DNA of 52,514 nt, taken from the NCBI GenBank assembly GCA_018830645.1, contig JAHJSA010000073.1, forward strand, positions 1-52,514. Direction: 5' to 3'. This stretch comes from Actinomycetota bacterium (GTDB lineage: Bacteria; Actinomycetota; Thermoleophilia; RBG-16-64-13). The notes under the pieces were generated by a model that saw only the letters and a program-made list of their open reading frames with translations, ran no database searches and was not told the origin of the DNA. Positions 4,675-22,215 of the stretch are shown here, one piece after another. Each line of letters starts with the position of its first letter. The first letter of the stretch is position 1. A program made the position numbers and the translations under genes.

Positions 4675-5820
4675 GTGGAGCTCCGACAGGTCGGGCACGA
4701 GGACGTAGCTGCGCTCCGGCAGGAGAAGCTGCTGCACTACCACCTGCCGCTCCTTCCTGACTTCCACGTGCACCTCGCGGGTCACGCTGAAGCATGGGAA
4801 CTCCACGAGGGCGCGAGCATGGTGGGCTACGCTCTCGCCCTTCGCGACAAACATGAGGGTCACGAGCACGTGACGCTCGTTGAGATGTACCTCACGGCCC
4901 CCTACCGCGACCGCTACGAGGACGCCATCGACCTGGTGCGAGAGACACTCGAACCGCGCGTATACCTGGCTCGCAGTGACGACTGCACGTACGAGACCGC
5001 GCTTCTGGCCAACGGTTATCAGATGGAGGCCAGTATGGCCCTGATGGCCGCCCGCGTCGTGGCGCCCCCCGGGGAGGCGCACGGCCTGAACCTGGTGCCC
5101 CTCGACTACCCGCATCTGCGCGCCGCCCACGACCTCTACCTGCACGTGAGAGGCGTCGAGCAGGCGCCCACCTACTCGGATCTGGAACAACAGCTGGACG
5201 GTGACCGCCTGTGGGTGCTCACCGACCACGATCAACCTGTGGCGCTCGTCGCGCGCGAGCCCAGCGAGGGCACGTCGCGCTACTGTCTGCTCGACATCCT
5301 TGCCCCCCACGTGGACGACGGCCCCCAGGTGTGGGCACTGCTCACCGCGGGCGGCATGGTCGAGATCGAGGGCCGCACCCCGGCCGCCGTCCTCGACATG
5401 CGTGACATCCGCAAGATAGACGTGTTCCGTGCCGCGGGCTACTACACAGCCGCCACCTACCTGATCTTCTACGATGCTGAGGCGGGTAGGCCGAGTGTGC
5501 CGACGATCTCCCGCGATGCGCTACGACTACTCGTGGAGGGCGACGAGCCCTTCCACCTCATCGACGTCCTGGGCGAAGACCATTGGGAGCGCGGTCACCT
5601 GCCCAAAGCACAGTGGGTGGACTTCCGGAGTCTCACCAAGGAGGCGCGGAAGAGGTTCAAGAAGGATGAGAAGATCGTGGTCTATTGCAACGATTACACA
5701 TGAGAAGCCTCAGGGATCGCAGCTGATAAGCTGCGACAGCTCGGCTACGCCGACGTCTCCGACTACGCCGGCGGCCTGGACGACTGGGTCGAGGCCGGCC
5801 TTCCGCTCGGGGACGACTGA
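4675..5820 (+). CDS. GNAT-like/rhodanese fusion selenoprotein (TGA at 5701-5703 read as Sec)
   Basis: The GTG at 4675 follows a strong AAGGGGG site. Residues 1-130 and about 135-265 look like two GNAT-type acyltransferase folds; residues about 275-381 are a rhodanese domain (LIDVLGEDHWERGHLP). A plain gene call stops at TGA 5701, right after VVYCNDYT. The same frame continues for 38 codons as EASGIAADKLRQLGYADVSD and GGLDDWVEAGLPL, exactly the missing end of a rhodanese, and stops at 5818. The TGA falls at residue 343, where related rhodaneses have the second cysteine of a C-x4-C active site (C338-x4-U343). A SECIS-like hairpin lies at 5717-5736. The organism encodes SelD. The rhodanese would move sulfur or selenium between thiols; the GNAT part's substrate is unknown. 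The selenoglutaredoxin gene begins 2 bases after the stop. Confidence 0.85.
5717..5736 (+). promoter_or_regulatory. SECIS-like hairpin of the rhodanese selenoprotein
   Basis: An 8-bp perfect stem TCGCAGCT/AGCTGCGA closes a 4-base loop GATA. The loop begins 21 nt after the TGA at 5701-5703. Bacterial SECIS elements have a short stem, a small apical loop with G in the first two positions, and a loop 16-37 nt after the UGA. This hairpin meets all three rules. It lies inside the coding frame (IAADKLRQ). Confidence 0.7.
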
Positions 5821-5822
5821 GC

Positions 5823-6185
5823 GTGGGGCTCTTCGAACGCGTGATGGGAGGGCTCAGGCCGAGGCCCCCCGTGGAGTTGTTCCATTCGCCCACCTGACCG
5901 GATTGCCTCGAGGCCAGAAGGTTCTTCTCGGCGCATGACATCCAGATGGTGGAATACGACGTGAGCAACGACAAGCACGCGGCCGAACGCATGGTGCGAC
6001 GTTTCGGCCGGGTCGCCACACCGGCGATCGTCATCGGCAAGCGTGTCTTCTGGGGCTTCGCCGAGAACCGCTCCGACATCGCCGAACTTCTGGGCATCGA
6101 CGAACCGAGGGCGCCCGCGCATGCTGGCGCCGAACCGGAAGGGACCGCGCACGGCGGCGTCTCCGATGGGGCGGATCAGGCATGA
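5823..6185 (+). CDS. Selenocysteine-containing glutaredoxin-like protein (TGA at 5895-5897 read as Sec)
   Basis: From the GTG at 5823 the frame reads VELFHSPT, then TGA, then PDCLEARRFFSAHDIQMVEY. This is a glutaredoxin/NrdH fold whose C-x-x-C redox motif has become U25-P-D-C28. The cis-proline strand ATPAIVIGKRVFWGF and the C-terminal helix follow, ending in a low-complexity tail of about 25 residues. The total is 120 residues with Sec. A normal gene call would start after the active site, at 5946, and lose it. A SECIS-like hairpin is at 5913-5932. The gene lies 2 bases after the seleno-rhodanese and overlaps the methyltransferase start by four bases (ATGA). It would reduce disulfides, selenenylsulfides or a rhodanese persulfide. 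Confidence 0.85.
5913..5932 (+). promoter_or_regulatory. SECIS-like hairpin of the selenoglutaredoxin
   Basis: Stem GCC-AGAAG pairs with CTTCT-(C)-GGC, 8 base pairs with a single bulged C at 5929, around a GTT loop at 5921-5923. The loop lies 24 nt after the TGA at 5895-5897 and starts with G, as bacterial SECIS elements do. The stem is weaker than those of the other two selenoprotein genes in the window. Confidence 0.55.
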
Positions 6186-7246
6186 GTTCGCTCGTCGATC
6201 AGCGCGAGGTGGAGAAGCTACTGGTGCTGGCGGCTGCGATCAGCTCGGGCATCGTGGATGCGGTAGCCGGTGACGACCCGCGCACCCCGTCTGAGGTAGC
6301 GGGTGTCGTCGGTGGGTCGGAGCGCGCGTGCCGGGTGCTGCTCGATGCCCTCGTGGCGGTTGGCGTGGCGGATCACGTGGCGGATCACATAGCGGGCGCG
6401 TATCGACTCAATGAGACCGGCCGCGCCCGTCTCATCGACCCGCCTCCGGGGGAACCGGTGCCGCCCGAGTTGGAGAGGTCGTCGCTCCTACACCAGGTCA
6501 GCAAGTTCGAAGGCTGGTTGCGGCTCCCCGAGATCGTGAAGGGAGCCGCGGGCGGGATGGGACCCCGTGGCCCCGCTAGACTCCGTTCGTTCGTGCGCAC
6601 CATGGGCGAGGGCGACCCGGCCGTGCCCGCCGAGGTGGTCAGCGCCTGCCTGGACTATGCGACGGCCACAGGCGGGGCGCCCGGCCCGGCTGAGGAACCG
6701 CCGGGTCCGCCCGGCGAAGCACCCGGCCCGGCCGAACAAGCACCCGGTCCGGCTGACATGATCGACGTGGGTGGCGCGGTGGGTCACATGGCCCGCCTCT
6801 TCGCCGACCGCGGTCTTCGGGCCACCTTGTTCGACCGGCCCGACGTTCTGCCCGAAGCTCGGGAGTTCCTGGGGAAGGGCGCCGACGACATCGAGATGGC
6901 GGCGGGCGACTTCACCGAGTCTCTTCCGGCGGGCCCCTTCGATCTCGCGTACCTCGGCAACGTCTTCCACATCTATGGCCCGGCGACCCTTCAGACACTC
7001 ACTCGAAGAGTGTTCGAGGTGCTGCGCCCGGGCGGGGTCATCGGCGTGCGCGACTTCGTGTGGGAACGGAGCCCTCGCGCTGCCATGTTCGCGATCAACA
7101 TGCTGCAGGCCACCGCGGAGGGTGGAGTCTGGCGCGAAGAGGAGTACCGAGGCTGGCTGACCGGTGCGGGTTTCGTAGATGTGCGCGTGGTCGACCTCAC
7201 CCTTTCGACCAGCCAACTGATACTGGGCCGCCGACCTCGCGCTTGA
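6182..7246 (+). CDS. Class I SAM-dependent O-methyltransferase-like protein
   Basis: A protein of 354 residues with the layout of the plant/polyketide O-methyltransferase family. An N-terminal winged-helix dimerisation domain (about 5-90, SEVAGVVGGSERACRVLLDA) is followed by a Rossmann domain with motif I MIDVGGAVGHMARLFADRG from residue 193. Further motifs are DIEMAAGDFTESLP, DLAYLGNVFHIYGP and VLRPGGVIGVRDFVW. Between the two parts (about 164-192) lies an odd Pro-Gly-Ala-Glu insert with repeats like PGPAE. The ATG overlaps the glutaredoxin stop, so it belongs to the selenoprotein operon. The substrate is unknown; a thiol, selenol or metalloid acceptor would fit the neighbours, but that is inference. 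Confidence 0.8.
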   Translation: MSSLVDQREVEKLLVLAAAISSGIVDAVAGDDPRTPSEVAGVVGGSERACRVLLDALVAVGVADHVADHIAGAYRLNETGRARLIDPPPGEPVPPELERSSLLHQVSKFEGWLRLPEIVKGAAGGMGPRGPARLRSFVRTMGEGDPAVPAEVVSACLDYATATGGAPGPAEEPPGPPGEAPGPAEQAPGPADMIDVGGAVGHMARLFADRGLRATLFDRPDVLPEAREFLGKGADDIEMAAGDFTESLPAGPFDLAYLGNVFHIYGPATLQTLTRRVFEVLRPGGVIGVRDFVWERSPRAAMFAINMLQATAEGGVWREEEYRGWLTGAGFVDVRVVDLTLSTSQLILGRRPRA

Positions 7247-7560
7247 CGCGCCCTCGCGACTGACCTGACCGGCGCAACCGAACGCGACCAAGCGCCGACG
7301 CGCCCGAAGCGGCCGAAGCGCCCGACGCGCCCGACGCCACAGGGTGCGACTGGTGCGACTGGTGCGACTGCCATGACGCCGGCGCCGGGCGCCCGCCCCA
7401 TGGGCTTCTTCCGAGGTTTGGCGCTCGCTCCCTGCGGAGATCCTACACCTGGCCCGCTGGAGCCACGCCACATGCCGTGGACTGCTCCGTGAACTTGTGT
7501 CCGGGCTCGTGTCCGCGGGCCGCGGGAAGATCGAAAGCGAAGAGAAGGAGATCATTCACA
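7247..7560. repeat. Intergenic region with short 9-base tandem repeats
   Basis: No gene is seen in these 314 bases. Around 7295-7340 variants of CGCCCGAAG/CGCCCGACG are repeated, and around 7346-7372 GGTGCGACT is repeated three times. The repeat units are multiples of three and could have been coding in the past. A good ribosome site (GAAGGAG) for rubrerythrin lies at the right end. Confidence 0.5.
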
Positions 7561-8057
7561 TGTCCGACACGATGAAGAACCTCGCCGATGCGTTCGCGGG
7601 CGAATCGCAGGCCAACCGCAGCTATCTGGCTTTCGCGAAAGCCGCCGAGGACGAGGGGCTCGCCGAGGTGGCGAAGCGCTTCCGGGTGGCCGCCGCCTCG
7701 GAGACGGTGCACGCGCTCAATCATCTCAAGGTGATGGGCGGCATCAAGGACACCGCCGCCAACCTGGTGGCCGCGATGGGTGGTGAGAACCACGAGCACA
7801 CCTCCATGTACCCGGGGTTCATCGAGCAAGCCAAGGCGGAGGGCAACGAAGACGCCAAGTTCTCCTTCTGGGCCGCCAACGAGGCCGAGAAGGTACACGA
7901 GAAGATGTTCGCCCTGGCGGCCGATAAGATGGCCGACCTCCCCGAGAGCACGTTCTACGTGTGCGAGGTCTGCGGGATGACCTACGAGAACGACGCCCCT
8001 GACGCATGTGTCGTCTGCAGCGCTCCCAAGTCGCAGATTCCAGAGTTCGTAGCATAG
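7561..8057 (+). CDS. rbr: Rubrerythrin
   Basis: A protein of 165 residues. A four-helix ferritin-like domain carries the diiron ligands: E15, E48-x-x-H51 and E110-x-x-H113. A C-terminal rubredoxin-like knuckle binds one iron through C135/C138 and C150/C153 (CEVCGM...CVVC). The protein reduces hydrogen peroxide in the cytoplasm of anaerobes, with electrons from rubredoxin or NADH:rubredoxin reductase. The ATG at 7561 follows GAAGGAG at a normal distance. The DUF2769-like gene starts directly after its stop, and a flavodiiron protein gene follows. Confidence 0.96.
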
Positions 8058-8058
8058 G

Positions 8059-8268
8059 ATGATGGTTCCCGATACCTTCGAGGACGCCGCCCGCTGCGTG
8101 TGCGGGCGGTGTCCCAGCAAGCCGGAGGAGATGAAGGGCTTCTACTGCGCCCGCGGCGAGAGCACCAAGGACATCATGAAGCGCGGGTGCATATGCGGCG
8201 AGTGCGATGTACAGATAGACTATGACCTGATGACCGAATACTACTGCGAGGTCGGAGCGGCCGTCTGA
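8059..8268 (+). CDS. Small cysteine-rich protein, DUF2769-like
   Basis: Sixty-nine residues with seven cysteines in paired motifs: CVCGRC, GFYCARGES, GCICGEC and EYYCEVG. The pattern matches the DUF2769 family seen in methanogens and strict anaerobes, and suggests binding of iron or zinc. Two ATGs stand in tandem at 8059 and 8062, just after the rubrerythrin stop. It lies between rubrerythrin and FprA, so it may be an electron carrier or accessory protein of oxygen defence. Confidence 0.8.
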   Translation: MMVPDTFEDAARCVCGRCPSKPEEMKGFYCARGESTKDIMKRGCICGECDVQIDYDLMTEYYCEVGAAV

Positions 8269-8309
8269 GCATCGACGGGGTCCGGCGTCCACACGACGCG
8301 AGGTGGTAC

Positions 8310-9518
8310 ATGGAGCGGTACCTGCTGAAGGATGACATCTGGTGGGTGGGAGTGATCGACTGGGACGTGCGTGACTTCCACGGCTACGAGACGCCGCGGG
8401 GGACGACATACAACGCGTACCTGATCGTAGACGAGAAGACCACGCTCGTCGACGGCGTCCGCGCCGGTTACGGGCCCGAAGTGCTTCGTCGCATATCGGG
8501 CTGCTGTGAACCCGCTTCCGTCGACTACCTCGTGGTGAACCACGTGGAGCCCGACCATTCGGGCGCGCTGCCGTGGCTCGTCGAGAGGCTCGCCCCGGAG
8601 AAGGTGTTCTGCACGAGTCGGGCCAAGGACGCCCTTGTGCTGCTGTACGGCGAAGAGGCTATCGCGCCGTGGAACATCGAGGTGGTCGGCACGGGCGACG
8701 AGATCTCGCTGGGTGCCCACACGCTCACCTTCCTCGAAGTGCCCATGCTCCACTGGCCGGATAGCATGCTCACTTACGTCAAGGAAGCGAAGGTGCTTCT
8801 CGCGAACGACGGCTTCGGCCAGCACCTGGCCACGTCGAAGCGCTTCGCCGACGAGGTCGATATCGACGTGGTCATGGACGAGGCCGCGAAGTACTACGGC
8901 AACATCCTCATGCCCTTCGGCAACCAGGTGCAGAAGCTCGTGAAGACGGTGGGCGAGCTCGGGCTCGAGTTCGACGTGATCGCTCCCAGCCATGGTGTGA
9001 TCTGGCGCACGCCCGAAGACATCGCCCGCATCATCCAATCGTACGTCGACTGGAGCTCCTTCAAGGCGGAGCCCTCGGTGGCACTGATCTTCGACACCAT
9101 GTGGTATTCCACGGAGAAGATGACGCGCGCCATCGAAGACGGCGTGGCTCAGGAAGGCGTGCCGTGCTCTGTGTTCCGCTTGAGCCGCACTCCGTTGGCC
9201 GAGGCCGCCCGGGCGGTCCAGACGCATCGGGCGGTGCTGGTGGGCACTCCCACGCTCAACAACGGCATGCTGCCGTCTGTGGGAGCCTTCATGACCTATA
9301 TCAAGGGACTGCGGCCCAAGGAGCGCCTCGTGGGTGCCTACGGCTCATACGGATGGGGCGGAGGCGGCGTCAAGCAGGTGGACGCAGCGCTCCGCGACCT
9401 GAAGCTCGAGGTCATCGATCCGCTCGAGTACAAGTACGTGCCCACCGACGCAGACCTGGCCGCGTGCGAAGAGTACGGCCGCGCGGTGGCGCGGCGGGTC
9501 AAGGAGTGGGGGAGCTAG
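8310..9518 (+). CDS. fprA: Flavodiiron protein (FprA family, O2/NO reductase)
   Basis: A protein of 402 residues. The N-terminal metallo-beta-lactamase-like domain carries all diiron ligands: H78-x-E80-x-D82-H83 (NHVEPDHSGA), H148, D167 and H228. A C-terminal flavodoxin domain (about 252-400) binds FMN, with loops such as TMWYSTEKM, GTPTLNNGMLP and YGSYGWGGGG. The enzyme reduces O2 to water, or NO to N2O, with electrons from rubredoxin or coenzyme F420. It is the last gene of the rubrerythrin operon, and a strong hairpin follows at 9620. Confidence 0.96.
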   Translation: MERYLLKDDIWWVGVIDWDVRDFHGYETPRGTTYNAYLIVDEKTTLVDGVRAGYGPEVLRRISGCCEPASVDYLVVNHVEPDHSGALPWLVERLAPEKVFCTSRAKDALVLLYGEEAIAPWNIEVVGTGDEISLGAHTLTFLEVPMLHWPDSMLTYVKEAKVLLANDGFGQHLATSKRFADEVDIDVVMDEAAKYYGNILMPFGNQVQKLVKTVGELGLEFDVIAPSHGVIWRTPEDIARIIQSYVDWSSFKAEPSVALIFDTMWYSTEKMTRAIEDGVAQEGVPCSVFRLSRTPLAEAARAVQTHRAVLVGTPTLNNGMLPSVGAFMTYIKGLRPKERLVGAYGSYGWGGGGVKQVDAALRDLKLEVIDPLEYKYVPTDADLAACEEYGRAVARRVKEWGS

Positions 9519-9619
9519 CAGCTTCGCCGGGGGGCGCCCGCGGTCGCCGCGCCCACGGCGCCGGAGCCGGTTGGAGCACTGTTGGAGGACCGGCCGGAAG
9601 GGTGTTGGAGGAGTACGAC

Positions 9620-9645
9620 GAAGGGGCCCCGAGCGGGGCCCCTTC
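9620..9645. terminator. Bidirectional terminator hairpin
   Basis: An 11-bp perfect stem GAAGGGGCCCC/GGGGCCCCTTC with loop GAGC lies between two convergent genes, fprA (+) and the metV-like gene (-). No long T-run follows, as is common in high-GC genomes. A second short inverted repeat (CCCGGTT/AACCGGG) lies at about 9665-9685. Confidence 0.7.
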
Positions 9646-9707
9646 GCACATGGACTAGTCAAGCGGCCCCGGTTCTGAAACCGGGCCGGGCGATGCGGTC
9701 CGCCGAA

Positions 9708-10352
9708 CTACTCGGGGCGCACCAAGCCGGGGCGCTTTATCGCGTTGTAGTTCTTCGGCGGCTGGATCTCGCGGAACTTGTCCAGCTCGTCGAGGGATTC
9801 GAGCCTCTTGTAGATCTGAGTCCAGACGCAGGGTTTGTCTGAGTCCACTTCGCAGGCGCCGTGATTGGTGCCGCCGCAGGGACCGTTCAGCAGGCCCTTC
9901 GGGCAGCGGGTCACCGGGCAGATGCCGCCGGTGTACTCGAGGACACATTCCCCACACGTGGAGCACTTCTCTTCGAAGTGCATGTGCCGTTGAGAGTTGC
10001 CCAGGAAGAGGCTGTCGTTGGTGGGGTACACCGGCAGATCGGTGGCCTCGACCGCGGATTGCACGCCGGCGCCGCAGCTCAACACCAGTACCGCGTCGGC
10101 TCGGGCCAGCTGCTCCTTGTGCTTGCGAAAATGGCGCTTCACGTCCAGTTCATGACACGGAGCGTATACGACGGTGGAGCCGACGGTCTTGTGGCCGCTT
10201 TCCTCGAGGATCCGGCCGAGTTCCTCGACCTCCCACTCGCCACCCGTCTGGCACTGACTCGAGCATTGCCCGCAACCCACGAGGAACAGGTTCTTGTGTT
10301 TCTCGACCATGCGGGCGATGTCTTCCACCGGCTTCTGCTTGGTGATGATCAT
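9708..10352 (-). CDS. metV: Methylenetetrahydrofolate reductase C-terminal-domain protein (MetV-like)
   Basis: A protein of 214 residues with many cysteines. GCGQCSSQCQTGGEWEVEEL near the N-terminus and CSTCGECVLEYTGGICPVTR, CPKGLLNGPCGG further on are the hallmarks of the zinc/Fe-S MetV subunit, or MTHFR_C domain, that partners MetF in acetogens and related anaerobes. It links methylene-tetrahydrofolate reduction to electron transfer in the Wood-Ljungdahl or glycine C1 pathways. No metF lies beside it. Its ATG overlaps the stop of the upstream regulator by four bases, so the two are translated together. Confidence 0.88.
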   Translation of the reverse strand: MIITKQKPVEDIARMVEKHKNLFLVGCGQCSSQCQTGGEWEVEELGRILEESGHKTVGSTVVYAPCHELDVKRHFRKHKEQLARADAVLVLSCGAGVQSAVEATDLPVYPTNDSLFLGNSQRHMHFEEKCSTCGECVLEYTGGICPVTRCPKGLLNGPCGGTNHGACEVDSDKPCVWTQIYKRLESLDELDKFREIQPPKNYNAIKRPGLVRPE

Positions 10353-11113
10353 GCGTCGTCCTCCGTTTCCGGGGCGCTCTCCGCCCGATTGTCCGGTTCC
10401 ACCACGCTTCGCTCAGCCGCTTTGAACACCAGAGTGCACACGTCGTGCGCCGTGGTCCGTCGGTTCGAATCGACCAGTTCGTAGGGCCGCCCGCCGCCCG
10501 ACAGCAACCCGGTCACGATCGCCTGGTCCAAGAGGCACACCAGCCGCGGGCGGCGGGTCGCGACTTCTCGGAACAGGCAGTTGCCCGTGTGCAACTCGAC
10601 CGTGTCGCCGTTCACCTCATACTGCAGCTGGGCGCCGGCTTCGACCAAGGGAGCGAGCCTCTCGCCCAGATCGGCATCGTCACTCACGGATGCGGCGAGC
10701 TGCCTTCCGAAGCCCGCCCCGATGTCGTGCACGATGATCTCGGCGGCGTCGCCGAAGCGTTCCAGCGTGTGAAGCAGCAGTTCCGACAGCACCTGATACT
10801 GGCGCACCGGCTCTTGCAGGTCCAGCCTCTTCTCGCTCCTGCTGTACACCTTGGGCGGTCTGCCGCCTTCGGGTTTGTGCAGGAAGTCCGTGATCAGAAG
10901 CCCGGTGTCGGTCAGTTTCTCCAAGTGCGCGCGCGCGACCGTCCTGTGCACGCCGAAGGTTGCGCCCACGTCCGCCGCGGTCACGGGGTGGTCGGTCTCG
11001 GCAACGTACTTGAAGATGGCGCGTCGCGTGGGGTCGCCGAGCGCATCGGCCAAGAGGTCCAGCTGAGAGTCCGCGGGCATGTGCAAGGAAGATATGGGCG
11101 TCTGTTTGCTCAT
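10349..11113 (-). CDS. Winged-helix (ArsR-like) transcriptional regulator with C-terminal sensor domain
   Basis: A protein of 254 residues. The N-terminal part (about 14-90) is a winged helix: LADALGDPTRRAIFKYVAET, VTAADVGATFGVHRTVARAH, and a basic wing, HKPEGGRPPKVYS. The C-terminal 150 residues resemble the ligand or cluster-binding half of related regulators (CLFREVATRRPRLVCLLDQA) and hold several possible ligands. It is transcribed with the metV-like gene and probably controls it. A TTGTGT-17-TAGAAT promoter ends only 8 bases before the ATG, so the mRNA is nearly leaderless. Confidence 0.82.
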   Translation of the reverse strand: MSKQTPISSLHMPADSQLDLLADALGDPTRRAIFKYVAETDHPVTAADVGATFGVHRTVARAHLEKLTDTGLLITDFLHKPEGGRPPKVYSRSEKRLDLQEPVRQYQVLSELLLHTLERFGDAAEIIVHDIGAGFGRQLAASVSDDADLGERLAPLVEAGAQLQYEVNGDTVELHTGNCLFREVATRRPRLVCLLDQAIVTGLLSGGGRPYELVDSNRRTTAHDVCTLVFKAAERSVVEPDNRAESAPETEDDA

Positions 11114-11121
11114 CGCCTCGG

Positions 11122-11150
11122 ATTCTAGCCGAACCAAGGGGGCTACACAA
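11122..11150 (-). promoter_or_regulatory. Sigma-70-type promoter of the regulator-metV operon
   Basis: Read on the minus strand: TTGTGT (11150-11145), a 17-base spacer and TAGAAT (11127-11122). The ATG lies 8 bases after the -10 box, so transcription should start at or next to the start codon. Confidence 0.6.
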
Positions 11151-11262
11151 GGGGTTTGGTGCATGAATACACACATAACTGCAACGGTGTGCGGCCGCGC
11201 ACGTACCTCCGTTGATGCGCGACCGCCTCGAATGGGCGAAGGGTCGCGGCGTGTCCCCGTGC

Positions 11263-11271
11263 TGGTACAAT
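11263..11271 (+). promoter_or_regulatory. Extended -10 promoter for the oxidoreductase operon
   Basis: TGGTACAAT matches the extended -10 pattern TGnTATAAT in five of six -10 positions. No clear -35 box is seen 17 bases upstream. The expected transcript would carry a leader of about 43 bases before the ATG at 11321. Confidence 0.45.
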
Positions 11272-11320
11272 GAGCGCGCTGGCGCCTCTGGATGCGAAGT
11301 GCACGGAAGGAGTACCCGGG

Positions 11321-12676
11321 ATGGCGAAATACGTGATCGTTGGTAACGGTGTTGCGGGAATGCGCGCCGCTGAGGTGGTTCGGCGCGAAGACGACACAGC
11401 TGACGTCATCATCCTCAGCGAGGAGTCCCATCCGTTCTACAGGCGTCCTCAACTCGCCGACTTCGCCTCCGGCGCGGTGGGTGAGTCGAGGTTGTGGGCG
11501 AAGCGGTCCGAGTACTACGTGAAGCAGCGTTTCGACCTTCGCCTCTCCTCCAAGGTCGTGGCTCTGGACGCGGCGGGGCGCTCTGTCACCATGGCCGACG
11601 GGGGCACGGTGCACTACGACAAGATCCTCCTCGCCACCGGCCGGCGAGTCACGGGCGGGGGCGTTGCGGGCAGCGATTCGCCGGGGGTGAACCACTTCAA
11701 GACCCTCGATGAGGCCCGAGTGATCCGCGACATGGATGGGGCGGGGAAGGCCGGTCTCGTGTACGGCGACGGACTCGTAGCCCTCGAACTCGTGCGGGCG
11801 CTCACTTCGGCCGGGTTCTCCACCACCTACTTGGTGCCTGGGGCCGCCCTGTGGCCGGAGGTGCTCGACGTTGACGCGGCGGGCATCATGGCGAGCCGCA
11901 TCGGGGCCGCCGGTGCCGAGATCGTGTTCGGCGCCCAGGTGCGTGCGGTCGACGCCGACGAGAATCGCGCTCGGGGCTTGGTGTTCGCCGGCGGTGATGT
12001 CTTGAGCGCCGACGTGGTGGGATTGTGCGCCGGATACGAGCCGGCCCTCGAGTTCCTTCCCGACGCGGGAGGGGAACTCATGCTGGGGGCGGGCTATTCC
12101 ACCCAGTGGGACGGCGTGTTCGCCGCGGGAGACGTGACCGAGTCGCGCGATAACCGATATTTCAACTGGCTCCGCTCCTGGCGCCAGGGCGAAGCTGCGG
12201 GCGCGGCCATGATGGGTCTGCCCTTCGACGAACCCTCCCGCTTGAGTACCTTGAACATGGCCCCCCTCGGGCTCAGTCTCGTGGCGATAGGACAAACGAC
12301 GGTTGCGTACCGCTCCGGCTTCACCGAGATGCGGGGCGACTACCCATACGGTGAGGTGTACAAGAAACTGGTGTTCGCCGCCGACGAGACGCTCGTGGGC
12401 ACGCTTCTTCTGGGCAACATCGCCGAAGCGGGGGCGCTCGAGGAGGCCATCCGGGGCGGGGTCAAGAAGGCCGACCTGCCCGCAGGTCTGCTTCATCAGA
12501 TGTTCGACGTGACCTACCGGGTCATGGCGCGAGGCGTACAGTGCCCCATCTGCAAGCACGAGATCCAATTGGGGAGCGACGCGGCGGCGGGCGACTTGGT
12601 CACCTGTCCGATATGCGGCAGCGACCTTCGCCTCGTCGATGGCGCCGCCGGGTTCAGCGCTCGAGTGAGCGGATAG
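11321..12676 (+). CDS. FAD/NAD(P)-dependent oxidoreductase with C-terminal zinc-ribbon (NADH:rubredoxin reductase-like)
   Basis: A protein of 451 residues from the ATG at 11321, which follows GGAAGGAG. It has an FAD-binding Rossmann fold (YVIVGNGVAGMRAAEVV), the HPFYRRPQL active-site region, a second dinucleotide fold (about 145-240, GLVYGDGLVALELVRALTSA) and the flavin motif GVFAAGDVTE. This layout is that of NADH:rubredoxin/nitrite-reductase-like enzymes. Unusually, the C-terminus adds a two-knuckle metal ribbon, CPICKHEI...CPICGSDL. It probably feeds electrons to rubrerythrin, FprA or the neighbouring flavoprotein. A further TTG-started flavoprotein gene follows 8 bases later. Confidence 0.9.
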   Translation: MAKYVIVGNGVAGMRAAEVVRREDDTADVIILSEESHPFYRRPQLADFASGAVGESRLWAKRSEYYVKQRFDLRLSSKVVALDAAGRSVTMADGGTVHYDKILLATGRRVTGGGVAGSDSPGVNHFKTLDEARVIRDMDGAGKAGLVYGDGLVALELVRALTSAGFSTTYLVPGAALWPEVLDVDAAGIMASRIGAAGAEIVFGAQVRAVDADENRARGLVFAGGDVLSADVVGLCAGYEPALEFLPDAGGELMLGAGYSTQWDGVFAAGDVTESRDNRYFNWLRSWRQGEAAGAAMMGLPFDEPSRLSTLNMAPLGLSLVAIGQTTVAYRSGFTEMRGDYPYGEVYKKLVFAADETLVGTLLLGNIAEAGALEEAIRGGVKKADLPAGLLHQMFDVTYRVMARGVQCPICKHEIQLGSDAAAGDLVTCPICGSDLRLVDGAAGFSARVSG

Positions 12677-12684
12677 GGGGAGCT

Positions 12685-13269
12685 TTGAGCGTCACGGTGC
12701 TCGGGTTGGCGGGGAGTCCGCGGAGGAAGGGGAACACCGAGACCCTTCTCGATTGGACCCTCGACGCGGCGGCGGATGTCGGCGCCGACGTGGTGAAGTA
12801 CCGCCTCCGGGAACTCGACATCGGCTGCTGCATCGCCTGCGATGGCTGCGCCGAAGGCGGTGAGTGCATCGTCGCCGACGGCATGGACAAGCTCTACCCG
12901 CTTCTTCGGGAGGCCGACAGTATCGTGTTGGCCGCTCCCATATTCTCCATGGGCATGTCCGCTCAGGCGAAGGCGATGGTCGATCGCTGCCAGCCGTTCT
13001 GGGCCATGAAGTACCTGCTCAAGCAGCCGTTGAGACCGGATGGGGCTCCTGAGCGGCGGGGCGCCTTCCTTTCGTGCGCCGGCACCCGGTTCAGCACCGT
13101 CTTCGACGGCGCGCGCCAAGTGGCCAACTACTTTTGGCACGTGCTCGAGATCCAGCCTATCGGTGATCTGCTCTGCCCGGGCGTCGACGCCAAGGGCGAG
13201 ATCGAAGACTATCCCTCTGCCCGCACGGTCGCCGAGGATATCGGCCGGCGACTTGGCGAGCTGCGGTAG
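12685..13269 (+). CDS. Iron-sulfur flavoprotein / NADPH-dependent FMN reductase family
   Basis: A protein of 194 residues. The FMN phosphate loop LGLAGSPRRKGNTETLLDW is at the N-terminus. A compact cysteine cluster, C-I-A-C-D-G-C-A-E-G-G-E-C, matches the C-x2-C-x2-C-x4-7-C motif that binds a 4Fe-4S cluster in Isf proteins. PIFSMGMSAQAKAMVDR is the second flavin loop. Isf proteins transfer electrons in anaerobes, often to O2 or peroxide. The TTG start at 12685 is chosen because GGGGGAG precedes it and the Rossmann strand begins at once. Confidence 0.88.
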   Translation: MSVTVLGLAGSPRRKGNTETLLDWTLDAAADVGADVVKYRLRELDIGCCIACDGCAEGGECIVADGMDKLYPLLREADSIVLAAPIFSMGMSAQAKAMVDRCQPFWAMKYLLKQPLRPDGAPERRGAFLSCAGTRFSTVFDGARQVANYFWHVLEIQPIGDLLCPGVDAKGEIEDYPSARTVAEDIGRRLGELR

Positions 13270-21144: not shown

Positions 21145-22215
21145 ATGGCAGACGTACCGCCGAGGCTCACCACGCTCTCTCACGGCTCCGGCTGAGCGTG
21201 CAAGCTGAGCCCCAAGGACTTGGGGCACGTCATCTCCCAGCTTCCGCGGTCGACGGACCCGGATCTGCTGGTGGGCACCAACACGGCCGATGACGCTGCC
21301 GTGTATCGCCTCACGGACGACCTGGCCCTCGTGCAGAGCGTGGACTTCTTCACCCCTGTCGTCGACGATCCGTACGACTTCGGGCGCATCGCCGCGGCCA
21401 ACTCCCTTTCCGATATCTACGCCATGGGGGCGACGCCGCTCATCGCTCTCAACATCGTGGGCTTCCCCGTGGACGTCCTGCCGATCGAACAGCTCGTCGA
21501 GATTCTCCGCGGAGGCGCGGATGTCGCGCGTCAGGCCGGCATGACCATAGTGGGGGGCCATACGATCGACGACCGCGAGCCGAAGTACGGGCTGGCGGTC
21601 ACGGGTACGGTCCGTCCGGGGAGCCAGGTGACCAACGCCACGGCGCGGCCCGGCGACTCCCTCGTCCTGACGAAGCCGCTCGGCACCGGGATCATCGCCA
21701 CGGCCATCAAGCGAGGGACTGCCGGAACCGCCGCCGTCGAAGAGGCCACCGAGGTCATGGCTACGTTGAACCGCGACGCCTCCCTGGCGGCCTTGGCCAA
21801 CGGCGTGACCTCCATGACCGACATCACCGGCTTCGGGTTGCTGGGGCACCTCCTGGAGATGTGCAAGGGCAGCGGAGTCTCGGCGGAGATCTGGGTCGAC
21901 GCCCTGCCGTGGTTGCGAGACGCTCGCTCGCTGGCGGAGGAGGGAGTGGTGCCCGGCGGCACCCGCCGCAATCTGGCCTTCGTCGAGCCGGACGTGGAGT
22001 GGGTCGACGACCTGCCCGAATACGAGCGCCTGCTCCTTGCTGACGCGCAGACCTCGGGGGGCCTGCTGATCGCCGTGCCGAGCGATCGTGCCGAAGCGTT
22101 GATCGCCGACCTGCGCGGCAGGGGCACTCCCGCGGCCGCGCTGGTGGGTCGGGTCGGCCTCGTTGGTGAGAGGGCCATCTCCGTTCGCCGAGGTCCTGCT
22201 CCCGGCTCTTCGTGA
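21145..22215 (+). CDS. selD: Selenide, water dikinase (selenophosphate synthetase), Sec-containing
   Basis: A protein of 356 residues with Sec17 (TGA at 21193). The frame begins MADVPPRLTTLSHGSG, then TGA, then ACKLSPKDLGHVI. The conserved active-site C17/K20 pair of SelD is here U17/K20. AIR-synthase-like folds follow: NTADDAAVYRLTDDLALVQS, ANSLSDIYAMGATPLIALNI, and DITGFGLLGHLLEMC. It makes selenophosphate for Sec-tRNA. AGGAGG precedes the ATG. A gene call that stops at the TGA would lose the active site. A perfect SECIS-like hairpin follows at 21209. The MFS gene overlaps its stop (GTGA). Confidence 0.96.
21209..21226 (+). promoter_or_regulatory. SECIS-like hairpin of selD
   Basis: A 7-bp perfect stem GCCCCAA/TTGGGGC with loop GGAC. 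The loop starts 21 nt after TGA 21193-21195 and begins with G, satisfying the bacterial SECIS rules. Confidence 0.75.

Follow-up and report, generated by a model that had tools for sequence, protein, structure and literature searches.

A rhodanese fusion gene with an in-frame TGA, predicted to encode a selenoprotein, and its glutaredoxin-like neighbor in an actinobacterium

An actinobacterial gene that is interrupted by an in-frame TGA is, with a probability that we put at roughly 95%, a selenoprotein gene, predicted from its sequence and its relatives to encode a rhodanese with selenocysteine (Sec) at residue 343 behind an N-terminal module. The gene occupies positions 4675..5820 of the window, by which we mean the whole stretch of 52,514 nucleotides that was analysed; the gene, its two active-site codons, the hairpin that follows them and the neighboring genes for a glutaredoxin-like protein, an O-methyltransferase-like protein and SelD are all on the plus strand. 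Its frame begins at a GTG at 4675 preceded by AAGGGGG, is open to the TGA at 5701-5703, continues for 38 more codons and ends at a TGA at 5818-5820; the read-through product has 381 residues, with U as residue 343. The N-terminal module (GNAT-like, not firmly assigned) takes up residues 1-267 and the rhodanese about 275-378. As the sequence-only reading had proposed, the frame stopped at 5701 resumes as the missing C terminus of a rhodanese: the continuation, EASGIAADKLRQLGYADVSDYAGGLDDWVEAGLP, supplies the remainder of the Pfam Rhodanese domain, and the read-through protein matches PF00581 over residues 289-373 with 56.9 bits against a cut-off of 22.2. The active-site loop reads C338-N-D-Y-T-U343, with Cys338 (TGC, 5686..5688) at loop position 1 and U at loop position 6.

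Relatives of the fusion were sought in 399 genomes of the class, and copies were found in 12, its own included, all within the window's family, for which 18 genomes are listed. Nine copies are full length and three are partial: that of G086 starts at residue 52 (contig end), that of G022 at residue 105, and that of G097 covers only residues 322-378 (contig end). Because the last is a fragment of the rhodanese end in which the N-terminal module is unseen, it was counted for the TGA, the codons and the hairpin and omitted from the alignment, the tree and the dN/dS comparison; two entries that are one contig stretch (L018 and L020, both G046) were counted once. Identity to the window protein is 42-97% over the ten other aligned copies, and a 96%-identical copy is present in the metagenome-assembled genome 'Actinomycetes bacterium isolate LH_M24'. 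Cys338 is invariant in the alignment of 11 copies. The codon at Sec343 is TGA in 11 of the 12 copies and TGT (Cys) in that of G052. We reject a sequencing error at the TGA, the same TGA recurring in 10 other genomes. The proposal that this TGA falls where relatives have the second Cys of a C-x4-C loop is borne out both by G052 and by the single rhodaneses of the class that lack a TGA, in which position 6 is Cys in 13 of the 14 read and Arg in one.

What follows the TGA evolves as protein under purifying selection. Between the window copy and that of G046, dN is 0 and dS 0.40 over 37 codons, and the median dN/dS after the TGA (51 pairs of 11 fusion copies) is 0.20, compared with 0.29 in the rhodanese part before the TGA and 0.33 in the N-terminal module. 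In a tree of 49 domains G052 is placed among TGA copies, where it shares a starred group with those of G022 and G086. Its Cys may therefore be a secondary state, although the innermost fork of that group is weak (96/33); G052 uses Cys although both SelA and SelB are present in its genome. The G022 copy (L029, G022:C51:20246-21061) is without the N-terminal third and contains a further TGA where Trp is conserved, and may therefore be decaying or misassembled. Among viral contigs no relative of the fusion protein was found. Among plasmids 8 records matched, none with 80% query coverage and all below 60% identity, and five among the matches listed begin at residue 223 or later of the fusion protein.

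A SECIS-like hairpin, TCGCAGCT-GATA-AGCTGCGA, lies at 5717..5736, exactly where the sequence-only reading had placed a perfect 8-bp hairpin with a loop led by G; we find 8 perfect pairs closing a GATA loop. The distance of 21 nt downstream that it gave holds from the TGA to the loop and fails for the stem, which starts 13 nt past the TGA. Of the 8 pairs, each of the 11 TGA copies forms seven or eight, and the Cys copy of G052 forms five. Folding energy is modest (z -1.99), being equalled or bettered by 11 of 200 dinucleotide shuffles. A perfect stem of at least 8 pairs follows 3 of the 660 TGA trinucleotides on the plus strand, presumably including the TGA at 5701. An Rfam scan of the window returned no family above its gathering score, and covariation is weak because stem pairing hardly varies among copies.

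Two rare codons are fixed in the hairpin of the TGA copies, GAT (11/11, compared with 26% of Asp codons elsewhere in these genes) and CGA (11/11, compared with 6% of Arg codons); given the relatedness of the genomes, the product of these frequencies does not amount to a probability. AAG (11/11) and CTG (10/11) are likewise shared in the hairpin. The corresponding codons in the Cys copy are GAC AAG CTG AGG, a contrast that rests on one Cys copy among related genomes. Averaged over the 7 hairpin columns, codon identity is 0.80, versus 0.50 at 63 other invariant degenerate columns, and for codons +8 to +11, which make up the loop and the 3' arm, it is 0.955, a value reached by 0 of 100,000 draws. 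Judging from these sequences, it is the species comparison that lifts the hairpin beyond chance; energy by itself does not. The hairpin is SECIS-like in lying soon past the TGA and in being retained in the predicted Sec copies.

The genome itself (3.87 Mb, 99.84% complete, 2.91% contamination) is equipped to insert Sec. SelA, SelB and tRNA-Sec, which the sequence-only reading had looked to elsewhere in the genome, are all found on contig C48 above their curated cut-offs, with 558 bits for SelA, 319 bits for SelB (345 with its in-frame neighbor) and 72.6 bits for tRNA-Sec. The SelD that it had noted is present in the window at 21145..22215 and is of the Sec type (LSHGSGUACK), with an in-frame TGA of its own at the catalytic site (21193-21195); the stretch after this TGA is not unusually stable against letter shuffles (z -0.78). 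Loose matches to tRNA-Sec and to SelB turn up in every one of 14 control genomes, with over-cut-off matches in 5 for tRNA-Sec and in 2 for SelB, and we therefore relied on over-cut-off matches only. Among the other TGA genomes SelA was found in 8 of 10, the exceptions being G092 (64% complete) and G097 (76%), and among the other genomes of the family in 14 of 17, where G040 (96% complete), which also lacks the fusion gene, is the third without it. SelB over its cut-off was found in 7 of 10 other TGA genomes, all but G092, G097 and G086, and in 13 of the 17 other family genomes, G040 being the fourth without it. The link between SelA and the fusion across the family is imperfect, as five genomes (G010, G028, G058, G064 and G070) have SelA and no fusion gene.

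Two bases past the end of the fusion gene starts another gene with an in-frame TGA, which the sequence-only reading had missed. It spans 5823..6185, matches the glutaredoxin domain PF00462 with 49.3 bits against a cut-off of 22.9 and carries its TGA (5895-5897) in the motif HSPTUPDC, so that glutaredoxin domain and UxxC occur together as expected of a seleno-glutaredoxin. The stretch after this TGA folds no better than letter shuffles (z 0.26). By motif search such a gene lies beside 7 of the 12 fusion copies, with TGA at the UxxC site in the window's genome, G046, G076, G092 and G080 and TGC (Cys) in G016 and G004; the same search found none beside the other 5. The recurrent downstream neighbor is an O-methyltransferase-like gene (PF00891; 6182..7246), whose cluster is found at 10 of the 12 fusion loci in an ORF-based comparison. 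The window's own copy was missed there because a longer opposite-strand ORF was chosen, and the gap in G022 probably has the same cause.

By Pfam, the window at 6182-13269 is a redox island comprising the O-methyltransferase-like protein, rubrerythrin, a flavodiiron protein, an MTHFR C-terminal-like protein, a pyridine-nucleotide oxidoreductase and an FMN reductase. Relatives of the rubrerythrin, the flavodiiron protein, the pyridine-nucleotide oxidoreductase and the FMN reductase recur at 3 to 6 fusion loci, recurrence being judged by similarity clusters together with leading residues. SelD lies 16.5 kb downstream of the fusion gene in the window, and in G034, G052 and G097 a SelD-like ORF follows the fusion gene at a distance of 2.6-7.5 kb, a count made within 8 kb, where several other loci end short of such a distance.

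Given this evidence, it is very improbable that the TGA is a genuine stop, leaving a 342-residue product without the rhodanese C terminus, or that the gene is a pseudogene. A standard ORF listing does end at the TGA, and the G022 copy looks damaged, but the codons beyond the TGA are conserved as protein (the median dN/dS of 0.20) among TGA copies down to 46% whole-protein identity, the G052 homolog reads straight through with Cys, and the TGA copies retain the hairpin with its rare codons, which the Cys copy does not. More improbable still is a reassignment of the TGA, to Trp for example, or its suppression without insertion of Sec. The frame would be open whatever the TGA encodes; however, the exchange partner within the fusion family is Cys and never Trp, Cys is likewise the residue in 13 of the 14 TGA-less single rhodaneses, and TGA still serves as the terminal stop of the window's fusion gene (TAG in G046) and of the glutaredoxin-like and SelD genes. 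On these grounds, and with the complete Sec machinery of the genome, we reject recoding of the TGA as Trp.

As for what a Sec at this position would do, we tentatively favor, at somewhat less than even odds, persulfide resolution by Sec343 with recycling by the adjacent protein. UGA at codon 343 would be read as Sec by means of SelB, tRNA-Sec and the hairpin just downstream. Cys338 would take sulfane sulfur (or selenium) as a persulfide, and the selenol of Sec343 would attack this persulfide, releasing sulfide and leaving a Cys338-S-Se-Sec343 bond, which would then be reduced by the UxxC glutaredoxin-like protein whose gene starts 2 bases downstream. Our reasoning for this is that a Sec five residues past the catalytic Cys looks like a resolving residue within the protein and that the adjacent UxxC protein suggests a reductant. 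Speaking against it, 5 of the 12 fusion copies had no such neighbor in the motif search. There is reportedly precedent for a seleno-glutaredoxin reducing another selenoprotein, in a Sec-glutaredoxin that serves a selenoprotein methionine sulfoxide reductase; by analogy, the client proposed here would differ in being a rhodanese. It is possible, if somewhat unlikely, that the fusion instead works as a selenoprotein oxidoreductase on some other substrate, be it peroxide, arsenate, selenite or a protein thiol, bound by the GNAT-like module. The location of the gene near the oxygen-defence genes for rubrerythrin and the flavodiiron protein would fit such a role, but loop position 1 of the rhodanese still holds its Cys. 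We consider it unlikely that, in place of persulfide reduction, the protein serves selenium or sulfur delivery, for example to the Sec-type SelD nearby. Rhodanese is able to supply SelD with selenium in vitro, and SelD downstream in the window and the SelD-like ORFs in G034, G052 and G097 are in keeping with this; the nearer neighbors, however, are mostly redox proteins (glutaredoxin-like protein, rubrerythrin, flavodiiron protein, pyridine-nucleotide oxidoreductase), and a carrier leaves a Sec at loop position 6 unexplained.

The sequence-only reading had described two GNAT-like folds fused to the rhodanese, and this part of it remains unproven. Pfam gave no GNAT hit in the window protein, and hits in its relatives are weak and confined to a minority: among 11 members PF18015 was hit in 4 (best E 6e-4), PF00583 in 2 and PF13480 in 1, alongside the non-GNAT families YbjN (2) and Darcynin (2), and of the seven relatives scanned against cut-offs two had GNAT hits, all below cut-off. 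Alignment with hhalign to GNAT was collinear for unit 2 at a low probability of 19% and weaker still for unit 1 at 7%. No match was seen between the two units (hhalign 0.3%), so sequence lends no support to an internal duplication. Profile searches of the PDB with the module yielded no GNAT and only weak hits, for example to IMP dehydrogenase (E 0.2 and above).

AlphaFold2 reached a pLDDT of 35.8 for the full fusion protein (two near-identical sequences) and 48.5, again low confidence, for unit 2 alone, and because of this low pLDDT fold searches from the unit 2 model count as hints only. In Foldseek 12 of the first 13 rows for this model were acetyltransferase/GNAT, some of them the same protein, at E 0.3-1.3, and no row fell below E 0.001; its best VIA had Z 4.0 and rmsd 3.6 with 86 aligned, and a Z of this size can reflect a mere common arrangement in such a model. 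In 11 GNATs of the same genome the glycines of the acetyl-CoA loop (columns G99 and G101) are nearly invariant. These columns are gapped against unit 1, and neither unit has a conserved Gly in what are weak alignments; the apparent absence of this loop makes acetyltransferase activity of the module doubtful. The module had 3 matches in a phylum sample of 396 genomes, all in the window's family. Going by sequence comparison, it appears to be family-specific and GNAT-like at best.

There is precedent for Sec in rhodaneses, in other motifs. The table of a 2026 inventory, as far as it is accessible, lists UxxS, UxxG, CxU, UxxG and UxxxxU for rhodanese-like selenoproteins, and CxxxxU is not among these (PMC13188914). 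Forms 1-4 in the same table (PF00581 with UxxS and UxxG; NF041203 with CxU) resemble the window protein in having a rhodanese domain with Sec in the motif, whereas the fusion would keep Cys at position 1 and place Sec at position 6; against the CxU model rhodanese_LYCAU (NF041203) it scores 37.7 bits where the cut-off is 115. The listed motif of TsoB (NF045694, rhodanese/DsbD fusion-like, UxxxxU) likewise puts a Sec five residues past the first loop residue. TsoB as listed has two Sec and a DsbD-like part, unlike the window fusion with one predicted Sec, Cys at position 1 and a module that is GNAT-like at best, and against its model the fusion, with loop CxxxxU, scores 27.4 bits where the cut-off is 805. 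In their accessible parts, a further source has three rhodanese entries, one with CxU (PMC9312934), two give rhodanese-related or sulfurtransferase selenoproteins without the CxxxxU motif (PMC1088965, PMC2398784), and another makes no mention of rhodanese (PMC12013277). Closer in loop layout is BH2092 (3nhv, 3o3w), a CX4C rhodanese that aligns over the domain with a Cys opposite Sec343 (YCWGPAC); proteins of this type have Cys for Sec, and the solved chains, of 126-144 residues, are without the N-terminal module. In a literature search that covered work other than subscription papers, supplements and preprints, no title or opening abstract on rhodanese selenoproteins or rhodanese-GNAT fusions described the fusion protein, and no paper was found on a CxxxxU rhodanese or on a rhodanese with a CBS domain and selenocysteine.

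The CX4U loop is not confined to the fusion. Outside the window's family the 399 genomes contain 25 rhodanese matches with a TGA, of which 24 were read (L037, L039, L043, L047 and L049-L068; G329:C2 was left out), and all 24 have the TGA at the same loop position 6 with a predicted stem after it, in a set that offers no Cys copy as contrast. One of them, L051, has a CBS domain by Pfam when the sequence is taken past the rhodanese, while for L037 the Pfam check covered the rhodanese part only; in neither was any NCBIfam model over cut-off. In the domain tree these proteins form one clade (99/99) separate from the fusion clade. This sequence-based grouping suggests, rather than demonstrates, that Sec was gained separately in the two, as the tree is unrooted and built on 106 columns.

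A broader proposal, which we hold with some reserve and at a little short of even odds, is that CX4U rhodaneses are an undescribed redox group in which Sec at position 6 would resolve the Cys persulfide through an S-Se bond, that the trait has arisen more than once in one actinobacterial class (in the GNAT-like fusion and in rhodanese-CBS proteins), and that the fusion branch would work in tandem with its adjacent seleno-glutaredoxin. The predicted protein adds a type of rhodanese selenoprotein, CxxxxU with Cys first and Sec sixth in the loop, that is absent from the accessible table of the 2026 inventory (PMC13188914). Standard ORF calling cuts the fusion gene at its TGA and splits the glutaredoxin-like gene at its own, so that such selenoprotein pairs are easily missing from annotation. 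The natural Sec/Cys pairs provide material for asking why the loop of a sulfurtransferase should require another, faster chalcogen, and with two adjacent selenoprotein genes the possible redox relay is directly testable.
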